In this document: piece after piece, positions 59,055 to 64,000 of the stretch | How the letters are laid out: each line of letters starts with the position of its first letter | How positions within the stretch are numbered: the stretch's first letter is position 1 | DNA from: an uncultured bacterium | GTDB lineage: Bacteria; Patescibacteriota; Saccharimonadia; Saccharimonadales; Saccharimonadaceae | Direction: 5' to 3' | Assembly: GCA_903821365.1 (NCBI GenBank) | Contig: CAIJKY010000005.1 | Span: 62,001-126,000, forward strand | Length of the DNA stretch: 64,000 nt | Made by a program: the position numbers and the translations under genes | The notes under the pieces: generated by a model | What the model was told of the DNA's origin: nothing | The model's database searches: none | What the model saw: only the letters and a program-made list of their open reading frames with translations

Positions 59055-60335
59055 ATGAAACAAAAAAAGCCATTTCTGTGGGGTGCAAGTGTTGCAGCGC
59101 ATCAAGTTGAGGGTAATAATCACAATCAGTGGACGACGTGGGAGCTGCAAAATGCAAATGTTTTAGCTGCCAAAGCTCGGCCGCAGTACGACAAGCTACC
59201 AAATTGGCCTGCAATTAAATCGCTTGCAACGAGTCCTGATAATTACATTTCGGGCAAAGCCGCAGATCATTATCACCTGTACAAACAAGACTTTGCACTT
59301 GCAGCTCAGCTAAACTTCAATGCACTACGTTTCAGTATCGAATGGTCGCGCGTGCAGCCAAATAGCAGTAAAGACTGGGATCATGAGGCGGTGGCACACT
59401 ACCGCGATTACCTTAAAGCAATGCGTGCCAAAGGACTAGAGCCAGTGGTTACTTTGTGGCATTTTACAAATCCAGACTGGTTTGAGGCCCTTGGAGGCTT
59501 TGCAAAGCCACGTAATCGTAAGTACCTTGTTGCGTATGCGCGTCGAATCATGGAAGAGCTAGGCGAGTATATCCACTATGTCATCCCGATTAACGAACCC
59601 GATACCTACGCACTTGAGGGCTATCTGCGAGCCGAATGGCCGCCGCAGCAGTCTGGTGTTGTTATCTCAATGTGGGTCTATTTTAACTTGTGCATGACGC
59701 ATCGGGCGATTTACAAGGCGCTGAAGCATGACGAGCAACAAAGCCAGTCTACCGATTCGCCGCGCCAATACACGGTTGCATTTAATAAAGGCTTTACCTA
59801 TTACTACCGCGCCGACGGCGACATCCGTAGCCGTCTCGCAGAGTGGGCAAGCCGTTTTGTTTTTGATGATTTTATTTTATTTCTCGTAATGCGACGATAT
59901 GATCTTATCGCCGTTAATTATTATTTCTCAGTCCGTTTCAAAGGTTTTAAAGTTTACAATCCTCCAAGCGAGCGTCGCAGCGATCTCGGCTGGGGAATGC
60001 ACCCAAATCATCTTGGTGATGTGCTTATTCGGCTTGCGAAGTACCATAAGGCGCCACTCATGGTCACCGAGTCCGGCGTTGCCGACACGGCCGACATTTA
60101 CCGCAAATGGTGGATTACAGAAAATCTCAAAGGAATTCAGCGTGCACAGAAACGCGGCGCGCGCGTCGTCGGATATCTCCACTGGGCTTTGCTTGATAAT
60201 TTTGAATGGGCACATGGCCGCTGGCCAAACTTTGGCTTGATTGCTGTTGATTACAAAACATTCAAGCGCACCATTCGGCCAAGCGCATCGTGGTACGCAT
60301 CGGCGATCGCGCTTTTCAAGAGCCGAGAGAAGTAA
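59055..60335 (+). CDS. Glycoside hydrolase family 1 (beta-glycosidase)
   Basis: 426 residues, (beta/alpha)8 barrel. The N-terminal signature FLWGASVAAHQVEGNN, acid/base Glu in PINEPDTYA and nucleophile Glu in MVTESGVAD are present; the usual ITENG is VTESG here. FRFSIEWSR appears as LRFSIEWSRVQP, and WALLDNFEWAHG is the family's late WSLxDNFEW block. No signal peptide. Substrate could be a beta-glucoside or galactoside. Confidence 0.92.
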   Translation: MKQKKPFLWGASVAAHQVEGNNHNQWTTWELQNANVLAAKARPQYDKLPNWPAIKSLATSPDNYISGKAADHYHLYKQDFALAAQLNFNALRFSIEWSRVQPNSSKDWDHEAVAHYRDYLKAMRAKGLEPVVTLWHFTNPDWFEALGGFAKPRNRKYLVAYARRIMEELGEYIHYVIPINEPDTYALEGYLRAEWPPQQSGVVISMWVYFNLCMTHRAIYKALKHDEQQSQSTDSPRQYTVAFNKGFTYYYRADGDIRSRLAEWASRFVFDDFILFLVMRRYDLIAVNYYFSVRFKGFKVYNPPSERRSDLGWGMHPNHLGDVLIRLAKYHKAPLMVTESGVADTADIYRKWWITENLKGIQRAQKRGARVVGYLHWALLDNFEWAHGRWPNFGLIAVDYKTFKRTIRPSASWYASAIALFKSREK

Positions 60336-60387
60336 TTCTACATGGGGAAGTGTTTTTGCTTAAAGACAAATAATGTTTCATAAAGTA

Positions 60388-60416
60388 TTGATTTTTAAAG
60401 TATTTTATGCTATAGT
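60388..60416 (+). promoter_or_regulatory. Promoter of the nucleotidyltransferase gene
   Basis: TTGATT (60388-60393), 17-nt spacer, TG-C-TATAGT (hexamer 60411-60416). A leader of about 110 nt ends in hairpin AACGCT (60492-60497) / AGCGTT (60505-60510) just before the ribosome site. No other feature seen in 60336-60532. Confidence 0.6.
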
Positions 60417-60532
60417 TTCTAGGTATTAACGTAGTAACGTCCACACTTCCTGTGCCACTCGCGCTAGTTTATGCTAGGCTAGATAGGTACAAACGCTAAA
60501 CGTAAGCGTTATAAAGGGTGGAGATAAGGATA

Positions 60533-61381
60533 ATGACCATGACGTGTAAACACGCCATCATTGTCGCTGCAGGCTTTGGCTCACGCCGCTTGCCAGTGAC
60601 CAAGGCTATTGAAAAAGAAATGATGCCGTTTTTAAATCGGCCCGTTGTTGATTATATTGTGCAGGACTGTATCGATGCAGGCATCGAGCACATTGTATTT
60701 ATCGTTGGTGAAGGTTCTGAACAAATCAAGAATTATTACACCACTCACCAAGTTCTTGAGGATTACCTCAAGCAGCACGGTAAAGAAAAGCTAATTTCTT
60801 CGATTGTTCCACCAAACGTAAAGTTTGATTTTGACGTTCAAACGAATGAAAAAATGTTCACTAAGTACGGTACTAATACTGCCGTCGCTATCGGCCGTCC
60901 TTACATCCCTGAAGGCGAGTCGGCTTTAGTGCTAATGGGTGACGCATTCCTTTATAACAGTGACCATAACCCAATTAAGCAAATGGTTGAAGCTGTTGCT
61001 GAAGGCGAATCGGCCATCATGGGTATCGAAGTCCCTCGTGAGGAAGTGTACCGCTACGGCGTGCTTGACCTTGACGAAGAGGGTCTTTTGCGCCGCACTG
61101 TTGAGAAGCCAAGCGTTGAAGAGGCGCCAAGCAACTTGATTAACACGGCTGAGTATCTCTTTACGAGTGAGATGCTTGATCAGGTTATGAAGTTTGATAA
61201 AGAAGAATCATCAGTCAACGGTGAGTTCTATGTCAATCTTGAACCGCTTGACCGTTATCTTAAGAGCGGTGGCCGCATGAAAGTGGTTGCACCTAAAGGC
61301 GTTTTCTTGGACGCTGGTTCAACCGAAGGTTGGCTTCGCGCTAACATTTTCCTCGCCGATGAGCAGGGTATAGATTACTAA
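60533..61381 (+). CDS. galU: UTP-glucose-1-phosphate uridylyltransferase (GalU type)
   Basis: 282 residues. The N-terminal nucleotide-binding signature AIIVAAGFGSRRLPVTKAIEKEMMPFLNRPV (GxGxRxxPxTKxxPKEMLP type) has Glu in place of the usual Pro-Lys. LVLMGDAFLY, GVLDLDEEGLL, VEKPSVEEAPSNLINTAEYLF and the final DAGSTEGWLRAN are all GalU-like. Makes UDP-glucose for glycan or glycolipid synthesis; a related sugar nucleotide cannot be excluded. The start could be ATG 60533 or 60539, with GTG 60518 less likely. Confidence 0.88.
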   Translation: MTMTCKHAIIVAAGFGSRRLPVTKAIEKEMMPFLNRPVVDYIVQDCIDAGIEHIVFIVGEGSEQIKNYYTTHQVLEDYLKQHGKEKLISSIVPPNVKFDFDVQTNEKMFTKYGTNTAVAIGRPYIPEGESALVLMGDAFLYNSDHNPIKQMVEAVAEGESAIMGIEVPREEVYRYGVLDLDEEGLLRRTVEKPSVEEAPSNLINTAEYLFTSEMLDQVMKFDKEESSVNGEFYVNLEPLDRYLKSGGRMKVVAPKGVFLDAGSTEGWLRANIFLADEQGIDY

Positions 61382-61398
61382 GGTATCTGTTCACTATG

Positions 61399-61425
61399 AA
61401 AAACGTCGCATTATGCGGCGTTTTT
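61399..61425 (+). terminator. Terminator of galU
   Basis: AAAAACGTCGC (61399-61409) / GCGGCGTTTTT (61415-61425), with one G-T pair and loop ATTAT. Confidence 0.9.
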
Positions 61426-61472
61426 CTTTTGCGCACTACAAGATACGAAAGCGCAACTAAATGATATAAGGC

Positions 61473-61501
61473 TTGACATTCTATTATGCTTATGCTAATG
61501 T
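61473..61501 (+). promoter_or_regulatory. TTGACA / TGC-TAATGT promoter, leaderless
   Basis: TTGACA (61473-61478), 17-nt spacer, TG-C-TAATGT (hexamer 61496-61501), 6 nt to ATG 61508. Same class as the promoters at 31493 and 35483. Confidence 0.7.
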
Positions 61502-61507
61502 TGAATT

Positions 61508-61726
61508 ATGAAAAAACAAACAGCCATCAAAACAAATGCAAGCAACGACGTACAAAGCGTGACCGCAGACGCTTTTGTACTCACTGAAACATTTAAAAAC
61601 GATATGAAGAGTTCACTGTTAGTGGTTTCACTAATGGTTAACCTAGTCGTCTTTACCGCGTGGTTAGTGATTCAATCAACCAATCACTACGATGCACAGC
61701 TAATGAGCGTCTTATTCACACGCTAA
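61508..61726 (+). CDS. Small one-TM membrane protein
   Basis: Not recognised; 72 residues. A polar Lys/Thr/Asp-rich N-terminus (about 1-34) is followed by one TM helix (LLVVSLMVNLVVFTAWLVI, about 37-55) and a short tail (STNHYDAQLMSVLFTR). Leaderless from a consensus TTGACA/TAATGT promoter and closed by a perfect terminator, so it is a discrete and probably strongly expressed unit. The promoter class is shared with a CHAP hydrolase and an FHA protein. Confidence 0.65.
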   Translation: MKKQTAIKTNASNDVQSVTADAFVLTETFKNDMKSSLLVVSLMVNLVVFTAWLVIQSTNHYDAQLMSVLFTR

Positions 61727-61744
61727 ACATTGCTGGGCAGTATT

Positions 61745-61774
61745 AAAAAGCCTCCGCTCGCCCGGAGGCTTTTT
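61745..61774 (+). terminator. Terminator of the 61508 gene
   Basis: AAAAAGCCTCCG (61745-61756) / CGGAGGCTTTTT (61763-61774), perfect stem, T tract in both directions. Confidence 0.9.
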
Positions 61775-61800
61775 AGCTGTAAATAATGGCAGTGTGGGGA

Positions 61801-61826
61801 GGTTATCCACAAAAATGGGGATAACC
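61801..61826. promoter_or_regulatory. DnaA-box-like palindrome upstream of mraZ
   Basis: TTATCCACA (61803-61811) faces TGGGGATAA (61816-61824, reverse complement TTATCCCCA). The outer GGTTATCC / GGATAACC gives an 8-bp inverted repeat. Confidence 0.55.
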
Positions 61827-61874
61827 AGCCCAGAAATGCACATGCTTACACGAAAGCAGCATAAAGTACTTGCA

Positions 61875-61921
61875 GTGGGTAATTGTGGGTAGTATGATGT
61901 TGTCAGTGGGTAGCGGTGGGT
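61875..61921 (+). promoter_or_regulatory. MraZ operator: four GTGGGT boxes with a -10 between them
   Basis: GTGGGT starts at 61875, 61885, 61906 and 61916, that is 10, 21 and 10 bp apart. MraZ is known to bind GTGGG-type direct repeats at 10-bp period upstream of its own gene. A candidate -10 TATGAT (61893-61898) lies between the pairs; a second possible -10 (TATAAA, about 61988-61993) is nearer to ATG 62027. Confidence 0.8.
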
Positions 61922-62026
61922 AGCCCAGCAGAGCAAAAAGCAAAGCTGACTATCGACCGAAAAAACAAACACCACAGTACAAAAAACTATAAAAATACGA
62001 AGCATTAGAACTTAGCCACGAACAAA

Positions 62027-62383
62027 ATGGATTACTTTGAACGCAAGCTTGACGAGAAGCATCGGCTTACTATACCGACAGAACTTCGCGCCGAATTTGC
62101 GAGCGGGGTGGTACTAACCCGTGGATTTGGAAACTATTTGCACATGTATCCGCAAAATGTCTGGGACGAGCAAGTCGAGCCAGCCTTGAAGGGAAGTATC
62201 CTTGATGAGGTTATTGCTGACTTAAACGTTAAATTTCGCACCGGTAAAGCCGCTGCAGAACTTGATCAGAAACAGGGGCGGGTGAGTATTGAGCAGCACT
62301 TGCTTGAGTACGCCAAGATCGACCGAACGATTACGGCAACACGAGCGGGAATGTATTGGCGTATCGTCGCAAAAGACGCGTAA
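62027..62383 (+). CDS. mraZ: Transcriptional regulator MraZ
   Basis: 118 residues, shorter than the usual 140-150. It keeps both AbrB-like repeats: the first around LDEKHRLTIPTELR and the second around LDQKQGRVSIEQHLLEYAKID, with the loss mostly at the C-terminus. MraZ forms a ring and represses or activates the division and cell-wall (dcw) cluster that it heads. Four matching GTGGGT boxes lie 106-152 bp upstream. No Shine-Dalgarno is visible. Confidence 0.92.
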   Translation: MDYFERKLDEKHRLTIPTELRAEFASGVVLTRGFGNYLHMYPQNVWDEQVEPALKGSILDEVIADLNVKFRTGKAAAELDQKQGRVSIEQHLLEYAKIDRTITATRAGMYWRIVAKDA

Positions 62384-62470
62384 TAGCTCTTAATCGATAG
62401 TAGCGCCGCGCACTTTAACAATTGATATGACTAGCACCAATGTCGGGTCAGCTTGATCGAATAGTATATT
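62384..62470 (+). other. Gap between mraZ and the structured RNA
   Basis: Contains weak promoter-like sequence (TAGTAT/TATATT at about 62462-62470) just before the RNA's first helix. No ORF or strong hairpin seen. Confidence 0.3.
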
Positions 62471-62751
62471 CGAGGTTAGCTACCTGACAGTCAATGGGTG
62501 GGTATAGAGCGGCCACCACAAGCCTTGCTCTTGTACCTCCTCTTATATCCGAAAGGGTATAGGAACAATTTACACCTCCCAAAAAACTCCACCTCACACA
62601 AGTCTCTCACTCTCGAATGGTAGCGTAGGAAACGATATCTCCTAACATTGCTTCCTACACCACATCTTCCATTCACACACAAAAACAAAAACTATACCAC
62701 GGCGGTTAGCCGACAAAAACAAACACATTGACTGTCAGATAGGTGACCTCG
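62471..62751 (+). ncRNA. Candidate structured RNA between mraZ and rsmH
   Basis: A 26-nt closing helix, 62471-62496 with 62726-62751 (23 Watson-Crick pairs, one G-T). Inside are GGTATAG (62501-62507) / CTATACC (62692-62698), hairpin ACAAG/CTTGT (62518-62534), a GAAA-capped hairpin (62541-62564), nested GAATGG/CCATTC and GTAGGAA/TTCCTAC (62615-62674), and CGGC-GGTTA-GCCG (62700-62712). The GNRA loop and its T-G pair favour the plus strand. Linkers are C/A-rich and include ACCTCC (62535-62540) and ACACCTCCC (62572-62580). I do not recognise it: RNase P, tmRNA and SRP signatures are absent. Confidence 0.7.
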
Positions 62752-62828
62752 CCGCGGCTACACTTAAAAATGTAGTTCACAACGCGAAGTCGTTCGTTAT
62801 AGAATACATAGATATTGTTAGTACTATA

Positions 62829-63743
62829 ATGAATAAAACACCACCACAACCAACTGGGCATATTACCGAGCAAGGACAGCACATTCCAGTGCTGCTTGAG
62901 CAAACGCTGCAGTATCTTGCACCACAACCAGGCGAAAGCTATCTGGATGTGACGGCTGGATATGGCGGCCATGCGAAAGCTGTAGCTGAACGTACTGGAA
63001 GTCAATCGACAATGACACTGATTGATCGTGACCAAAATGCTGTTACCGCTCTGCAACCATTTATCGATGGGGGAGCGCGGCTCATACACAGTGATTTTCT
63101 CAGCGCCGCCCGCGAGCTTCATGCAGAAGGACAGCGCTTTGATATGGTCTTGGCCGATCTAGGGGTTTCATCGCCACAGTTTGATGTTGACGCACGAGGG
63201 TTTTCCTTCAAGCGTGCTGCAGAACTGGATATGCGAATGGACCAACGCGAAGAACTCAGCGCGGCAACCGTTGTAAACGAATGGCCGCAAGAGGAAATTG
63301 CTAAGATCATCTGGCGATATGGCGAAGAGCCACTTGCCAGGAGACTAGCAGAAGCGATTGTCGCTCATAGGCCAATCGCTGGCACTGTCGAACTTGCCGA
63401 AGTTATCGCCACAATTGCAAAGCGTAAGCGCATAGACGCTACGACTCGCACCTTTCAAGCCATACGGATAGCAGTCAATCAAGAACTGGCAATGATATCT
63501 GGGTTTATGGAGCTTATACCTGATCTACTTACCCCTGGTGGGCGAGTGGTGATTATCAGCTTCCATAGTCTCGAAGATAGAATTGTCAAAAAGTTCTTTG
63601 CCGAAGAAGCCAAAGCTGGCTACGAAGCCCAGCTCACTATACTGACAAAACGACCTATCGATGGCGCAACTTACGATGTTTCCAATCCGCGAGCACGAAG
63701 CGCAAAACTTCGGGCCGCAGCAAAAATAAAAAACGTGGTATAG
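62829..63743 (+). CDS. rsmH: 16S rRNA (cytosine-1402-N4)-methyltransferase RsmH
   Basis: 304 residues; methylates C1402 in the ribosomal P site. SAM-binding LDVTAGYGGHAKAVAE, ADLGVSSPQFDVDARGFSFKRAAELDMRMD and the C-terminal RVVIISFHSLEDRIVKKFF are all diagnostic. Second gene of the dcw cluster in most bacteria. It is separated from mraZ here by the structured RNA. A TATAAT (62825-62830) overlaps the ATG and cannot be its promoter for this start; TATAGA/TAGATA elements at about 62798-62815 are alternatives. Confidence 0.95.
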   Translation: MNKTPPQPTGHITEQGQHIPVLLEQTLQYLAPQPGESYLDVTAGYGGHAKAVAERTGSQSTMTLIDRDQNAVTALQPFIDGGARLIHSDFLSAARELHAEGQRFDMVLADLGVSSPQFDVDARGFSFKRAAELDMRMDQREELSAATVVNEWPQEEIAKIIWRYGEEPLARRLAEAIVAHRPIAGTVELAEVIATIAKRKRIDATTRTFQAIRIAVNQELAMISGFMELIPDLLTPGGRVVIISFHSLEDRIVKKFFAEEAKAGYEAQLTILTKRPIDGATYDVSNPRARSAKLRAAAKIKNVV

Positions 63744-63782
63744 CAAAAAGCTGTATCGCACCCAAAGAAAGGACTCGCCGCA

Positions 63783-63842
63783 ATGCCAATCAAAGTTGTC
63801 GACGTGTCAAAAACACAAAAGGTTGAGGTTCACTTCCTCTAA
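63783..63842 (+). CDS. Small ORF of 19 codons after rsmH
   Basis: MPIKVVDVSKTQKVEVHFL, with AAAGGA about 10 nt before the ATG. The last codons lie in a hairpin: AAAGGTTGA pairs with TCAACCTTT (about 63818-63854), with inner GAGG/CCTC. It could be a leader peptide or chance. Low confidence. Confidence 0.25.
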   Translation: MPIKVVDVSKTQKVEVHFL

Positions 63843-63866
63843 AGTCAACCTTTAGATTGCAGCAAG

Positions 63867-63894
63867 CGCTGCGCAGCAAAAATACTGCGCAGCG
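63867..63894 (+). other. Perfect hairpin near the window end
   Basis: CGCTGCGCA pairs with TGCGCAGCG around an A-rich loop. No clear T tract follows. The final 100 bases show no gene I can support. Confidence 0.5.
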
Positions 63895-64000
63895 ACTGGC
63901 TGCTGTTTGAAAGTTGGAAGATAAGTGGGCGACTCGCGCGTCGTATTGCCGCTGATTCTGTATGTCTATTGTTCTGTCAGGCGATGCTGCTGGACTGAAC

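Follow-up and report, generated by a model that had tools for sequence, protein, structure and literature searches.

The element upstream of rsmH in the window (the whole 64,000-nucleotide stretch of DNA that was analysed) is almost certainly a real, functional RNA. It is a folded, non-protein-coding molecule of about 240-280 bases that matches no known family and is apparently undescribed, and it is shown to be class-wide and single-copy and appears to be Saccharibacteria-specific. The reading we favour, to which we give a probability of just under one half (0.48), is that the element is a leader with a boxA, similar to that of pre-rRNA, which acts in cis on rsmH and on the division/cell-wall (dcw) operon, and this reading is preferred over that of a processed, trans-acting RNA.

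Fold of the element and comparison with known RNAs

The segment 62471-62751 folds on the plus strand with a free energy of -92.3 kcal/mol (z = -7.9), and none of 200 dinucleotide shuffles was equally stable. The minus strand of the same segment reaches z = -6.0, so the strand cannot be assigned from folding energy alone. Among homologues, many pairs of the closing helix, P1, are G-C in some and G-U in others when the plus strand is read, differences that would be mismatches on the minus strand; hence the plus strand carries the functional RNA. The features of the locus are collected in Table 1.

Table 1. Features of the mraZ-rsmH interval (positions in the window).
Feature	Positions	Strand	Basis or remark
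mraZ, upstream gene	62027..62383	+	Open reading frame
boxA GCACTTTAACAATT, putative NusB/S10 site	62410..62423	+	Positional conservation; similar in 16S leaders
P1 closing helix, 5' arm	62471..62496	+	Pairs with 62726-62751; covariation
P2 hairpin GGTGG/CCACC, first half of H-type pseudoknot	62497..62517	+	GTGG...CCAC nearly throughout the homologues
Pseudoknot helix, AGAGC (62506-62510) with GCTCT (62527-62531)	62506..62531	+	Own-strand pairing test
GAAA-tetraloop hairpin (62542-62550/62555-62563), genus-specific insertion	62542..62563	+	Fold
Module 0, ACACCTCCC, unpaired	62572..62580	+	Exact in 44/58 unbiased relatives
Module I, ACTCCACCTCACAC, unpaired	62586..62599	+	CTCCACCTC in 50/58 unbiased relatives
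Module II, AAGTCTCTC (mostly ATAAGTCTCTC in relatives), unpaired	62600..62608	+	55/58 unbiased relatives
P3 variable hairpin domain, GAATGG/CCATTC, inner GTAGGAA/TTCCTAC	62615..62674	+	Fold
Tandem A-rich linkers, ACAAAAACAAA x2, flanking small CGGC/GCCG hairpin	62679..62726	+	Linkers conserved in alignments
P1 closing helix, 3' arm, nearly invariant GGUG	62726..62751	+	Covariation as for 5' arm
rsmH, 16S rRNA m4C1402 methyltransferase, directly downstream	62829..63743	+	Same strand in loci compared

At the level of comparative sequence, P1 is proven by covariation: both sides have changed in 18 of its 23 consensus pairs in the homologue alignment, and P1 cells are paired in 97.1% of cases, versus 84.6% in shuffles and no more than 48% after sliding of the 3' arm. 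The original prediction of a structured RNA at this place is borne out by the z-score, by conservation and by the covariation of the closing helix in relatives' mraZ-rsmH regions. Its limits are confirmed for the folded part, but the conserved boxA lies outside them and is part of the unit. The closing helix, the GAAA hairpin and several other predicted helices are present in the fold. Where the minimum-energy fold has a simple hairpin in the 5' domain, the homologues support an H-type pseudoknot as the conserved form of this domain, in which the loop of a GTGG/CCAC hairpin pairs downstream across an A-rich linker. The own downstream strand pairs with the loop in 82% of homologues, versus 45% after species swap, and a permutation test gave an observed value of 8.2 against a mean of 3.8 +/- 0.4. 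With the register left free, pairing hardly exceeded that of the species swap, whereas the position-restricted test, in which the downstream strand is limited to bases after the A-run, is clear.

Other parts of the fold vary. The GAAA hairpin is an insertion relative to most homologues: in the alignment, only the same-genus homologue also has a hairpin at this site, of different sequence. The small CGGC/GCCG hairpin is likewise an insertion relative to most homologues, common to the same-genus genome only, and the P3 domain differs strongly among homologues in both sequence and size.

Among relatives, three pyrimidine-rich modules without pairing partners hardly vary. The order 3' of the pseudoknot is ACACCUCCC, ACUCCACCUCAC and AUAAGUCUCUC, followed by the variable hairpin domain and two A-rich linkers, and the spacers between modules leave room for whole hairpins. 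The most universal module is AUAAGUCUCUC, and AAGUCUCUC is nearly universal; ACACCUCCC is missing from some lineages and CUCCACCUC from others. At least one of ACCUCC and CACCUC is retained in 57 of the 58 unbiased relatives, neither being singly essential. Module I is invariant in alignments of 58 and 45 sequences, which were mostly picked by a pattern containing module I. As for the stretches predicted to be single-stranded, ACACCTCCC and CTCCACCTC (the latter at 62587-62595) are unpaired in the predicted fold, whereas ACCTCC at 62535-62540 is partly paired. Some elements among loci L003, L053 and L149 carry ACACCACAACAACTCCATTA, a near-match to the rsmH coding start CCACCACAACAACTCCAT, a likeness that may be just the A/C-rich style of the class's untranslated leaders.

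Searches against Rfam returned no match at E<=1 within positions 60000-64000 of the window and none at E<=0.5 in ten relatives, so no known class is assigned to the element. The genes for RNase P RNA (RF00010), tmRNA (RF00023) and 16S rRNA (RF00177) are located elsewhere in the genome and do not match here, in agreement with the earlier view that the element is neither RNase P RNA nor tmRNA; sense similarity to rRNA, tmRNA and RNase P RNA is not above chance. The 16S gene of this genome (locus L061, contig C12) is partial, its match ending at about model position 873-902 at the contig end, and the 23S and 5S genes were located in a relative's rRNA operon. No description of such a Saccharibacteria RNA was found in the literature searched, namely open-licence PMC papers.

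The element is also distinct from its nearest known counterparts. The mraW RNA motif of Actinomycetales (RF01746; PMC2864571) is likewise a conserved RNA 5' of mraW, i.e., rsmH, but its covariance model matches neither positions 60000-64000 of the window nor ten relatives, which belong to another phylum. The suhB-type leaders (PMC5725501) share a non-rRNA boxA by a gene tied to ribosome assembly; the suhB boxA, however, is near the start codon and comes without a large conserved RNA structure, and no Rho RNA-binding domain was found in Saccharibacteria relatives. The dcw leader of Rhodobacter sphaeroides releases the abundant trans-acting sRNA UpsM (PMC5089854), a 206 nt RNA from the untranslated start of the operon, but UpsM is encoded 5' of mraZ, an intrinsic terminator forms its 3' end, RNase E cleaves it with Hfq, and it is confined to Rhodobacteraceae (PMC5089854).

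Distribution and gene context

Fifty-nine relatives were chosen by the position of rsmH, and are thus unbiased with respect to the RNA. A recognisable element is present in 58 of their rsmH-upstream regions, one of the 58 being very divergent, and the exception is truncated by a contig end. A covariance model built from 45 sequences found one full-length copy each in 35 of 37 Saccharimonadia genomes; in other Patescibacteria it matched one genome of 343, weakly (E = 5e-4), under stricter filters that very divergent forms could escape. Matches to the element were obtained with blastn in 54 of 61 related whole genomes, and the core DNA pattern is present in at least 120 contigs of the GTDB collection, mostly labelled Saccharibacteria or Saccharimonadia among the matches listed, and the rest mainly MAG bacteria; the window is accordingly of saccharibacterial origin.

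The link to rsmH is absolute: the gene follows on the same strand, at most 272 nt 3' of the element, in 111 of 112 loci, and the exception has just 151 nt past the element. The gene mraZ is upstream in 108 of the 112. Given that the four genomes without mraZ, a same-genus one included, all keep promoter-like sequence, a boxA-like element, the RNA and rsmH, the RNA belongs with rsmH rather than with mraZ. There is little promoter space between the mraZ stop and boxA, so mraZ is probably co-transcribed with the RNA where present. Among the 78 homologues whose gap is 15 nt or longer, 34 have a -10-like hexamer within the last 24 nt ahead of the rsmH start, versus 5.8 expected by shuffling; in those homologues an element-free, leaderless rsmH mRNA is therefore possible. 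In other homologues P1 is followed by an A-rich stretch and then directly by the rsmH start codon. No terminator and no switch sequestering the Shine-Dalgarno (SD) sequence was recognised in the homologues. The 3' arm AGGUGAUC was considered as an extended SD sequence and rejected, since the 16S of the class has ATTACCTCC rather than ATCACCTCC at its end, and the distance to rsmH is variable.

Two further observations concern the operon. At least four GTGGGT repeats lie upstream of mraZ at 61790-61935, as expected for MraZ operator boxes; in the same-genus genome without mraZ (L002) the upstream boxes have decayed. Directly 3' of rsmH, at 63783-63842 on the plus strand, is a micro-ORF of 19 codons (MPIKVVDVSKTQKVEVHFL) with an SD sequence. 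Relatives of 19-23 amino acids, with the family pattern MPI-x-V-x-N-x-S-x-V-x-V-R-F/V-K/G, occupy the same place in nearly every Saccharibacteria locus checked, and the micro-ORF looks to be a conserved dcw-operon gene for a micropeptide not described before.

The boxA and a proposed action in cis

The boxA lies 0-50 nt 3' of the mraZ stop and mostly 10-50 nt 5' of P1, with the conserved form G-C/T-A/T-C-N-TTAACAAT (G-Y-W-C-N-TTAACAAT). Scored against CTTTAACAAT, 75 of 112 homologues reach 9-10 of 10, and none of 112 shuffled sequences does. In the order's 16S leaders the boxA reads CTTTAACAATT or differs from it by one base, and in most cases GTTGTGCAA or a similar sequence comes next. This genome contains the exact 11-mer CTTTAACAATT a single time; genome-wide, exact matches to the 11-mer are not clearly above the reversed-pattern control, and the support for boxA is thus its positional conservation. 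The element's boxA also fits the published consensus GYTCTTTAANA, which is gamma-proteobacterial (PMC5725501).

All 21 Saccharibacteria relatives compared encode both NusB and RNase III, and the two genes are about 1 kb apart in every one of these genomes (within relatives G000-G044). The Rho RNA-binding domain PF07497 was found in none of the 21, whereas the same search was positive in nine of 14 control genomes. This suggests canonical Rho is missing and makes anti-Rho protection unlikely, so that the best-known boxA effect is probably unavailable here.

The closest layout is that of pre-16S rRNA, a boxA followed by a leader-trailer helix that is essential for active subunits (PMC10250234), and leaders of ribosome-related genes, e.g., suhB, are among the known targets of the Nus complex (PMC5725501). 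As in the pre-16S leader (PMC10250234), boxA CTTTAACAATT precedes a long helix, P1 joins RNA ends about 230 nt apart, and RNase III and NusB are encoded. In contrast to pre-16S rRNA, the element encloses 240-280 nt of non-ribosomal RNA with a pseudoknot, follows mraZ instead of lying in an rRNA operon, and shows no rRNA similarity above chance.

Under the cis reading, transcription would begin upstream of mraZ, and the boxA, exposed just 3' of the mraZ stop, would, as it does in pre-rRNA, bring NusB-S10 to RNA polymerase. The NusB-S10/polymerase complex would retain the 5' arm while a further 230 nt or so are transcribed; once the 3' arm is out, the long P1 would close in the manner of the pre-16S leader-trailer helix. 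P1 is a likely RNase III substrate, and its cleavage would part the mraZ RNA from the rsmH RNA. The pseudoknot and the unpaired multiloop modules may be the part that a factor recognises; the likeliest candidates are linked to 30S assembly, such as the S10/Nus complex or RsmH itself. The bound factor would then set read-through and translation of rsmH and later genes. RsmH is a 30S maturation enzyme.

The structure, the covariation of P1 and the pseudoknot, the boxA, the linkage to rsmH, the class-wide single copy, and the presence of NusB and RNase III all speak for this reading. Against it stand the rsmH-proximal -10 box in many homologues, the failure to recognise a terminator or an SD-sequestering switch, and the Rho RNA-binding domain's not being found. 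Moreover, cis-regulators usually precede more than one gene, and the element is seen before rsmH only.

Alternative readings and significance

The same layout lends itself to the main competing, still tentative explanation, that the element is a discrete trans-acting ncRNA: co-transcribed with mraZ, kept intact and folded by boxA, and excised by RNase III at P1, it would work elsewhere through its unpaired modules, most likely via protein binding. The arrangement is that of an rRNA transcription unit on a small scale, with boxA, a leader-trailer helix and an RNase III gene in the genome; the RNA is universal in the class and single-copy, is retained in genomes without mraZ, and in many genomes is followed by a promoter-like box of rsmH's own, and the release of UpsM from a dcw leader is a precedent (PMC5089854). 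Yet the element is never found away from rsmH, a linkage that a trans RNA does not need, its core has no conserved complementary target, and pairing with rRNA is not above controls. As a complete account, a universal, single-copy, rRNA-like ncRNA under boxA control that RNase III cuts out of the dcw operon and that acts in trans via its unpaired modules, we consider it less likely than not. The original prediction had placed the working part in the stretches resembling the anti-SD, with ACCUCC/CACCUC titrating or pairing with SD sequences so as to act on SD-led genes. The resemblance is genuine, given that the class 16S terminates in ATTACCTCCTTTCT and ACCUCC is the exact anti-SD hexamer; what survives of the role is a weak form, in which one or other motif is kept almost throughout, while neither is essential singly. 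Since this is so and AAGUCUCUC, which is not anti-SD, is as well kept, SD pairing is improbable as the main role. Individual modules are dispensable and lost in some lineages, AUAAGUCUCUC is the most universal of them, and conserved flanking bases and the invariant stretch extend far past any SD complement. A search of 41 genomes with a single 12-mer, GAGGTGGAGTTT, which is fully complementary to the invariant core, gave no recurrent partner or target beyond chance, nearly all of its matches lying opposite the element, and pairing of the core with 16S/23S is not above shuffled controls.

That ACACACCUCCC resembles 16S ACACACCGCCC around C1402, in an element linked to rsmH, would fit a substrate mimic for direct autoregulation by RsmH, but the module is missing in termite-gut lineages that retain both rsmH and the element, and the similarity to rRNA is not above shuffled controls, which leaves this idea very improbable. 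A Rho-dependent attenuator, with a C-rich, G-poor, rut-like stretch under boxA control, could draw on the composition of 62566-62613 (42% C, 2% G); set against the lack of PF07497 in the 21 relatives and its detection in nine of 14 control genomes, we give it hardly any credence. Equally slight are the chances that the element is a DNA-level site, for MraZ or another protein, and not an RNA: MraZ-type GTGGGT boxes do lie nearby, upstream of mraZ, but the G-U pairs and compensatory changes extend across 230 nt, and the element is kept in four genomes without mraZ, in the same-genus one of which the boxes have decayed.

Saccharibacteria live widely as epibionts and have tiny genomes; the RNA is likely important to them, given that one copy is kept across nearly the whole class. 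The boxA and leader-trailer helix typical of rRNA are here placed on a non-ribosomal RNA, beside a 16S methyltransferase and the division operon, an arrangement that would connect ribosome assembly with cell-wall synthesis. If the trans reading were true, a non-ribosomal RNA would be using the rRNA biogenesis route in a lineage apparently without Rho. With no detectable Rho RNA-binding domain, these bacteria offer a natural test of whether boxA and the Nus factors serve RNA folding and processing, as opposed to protection from Rho only.
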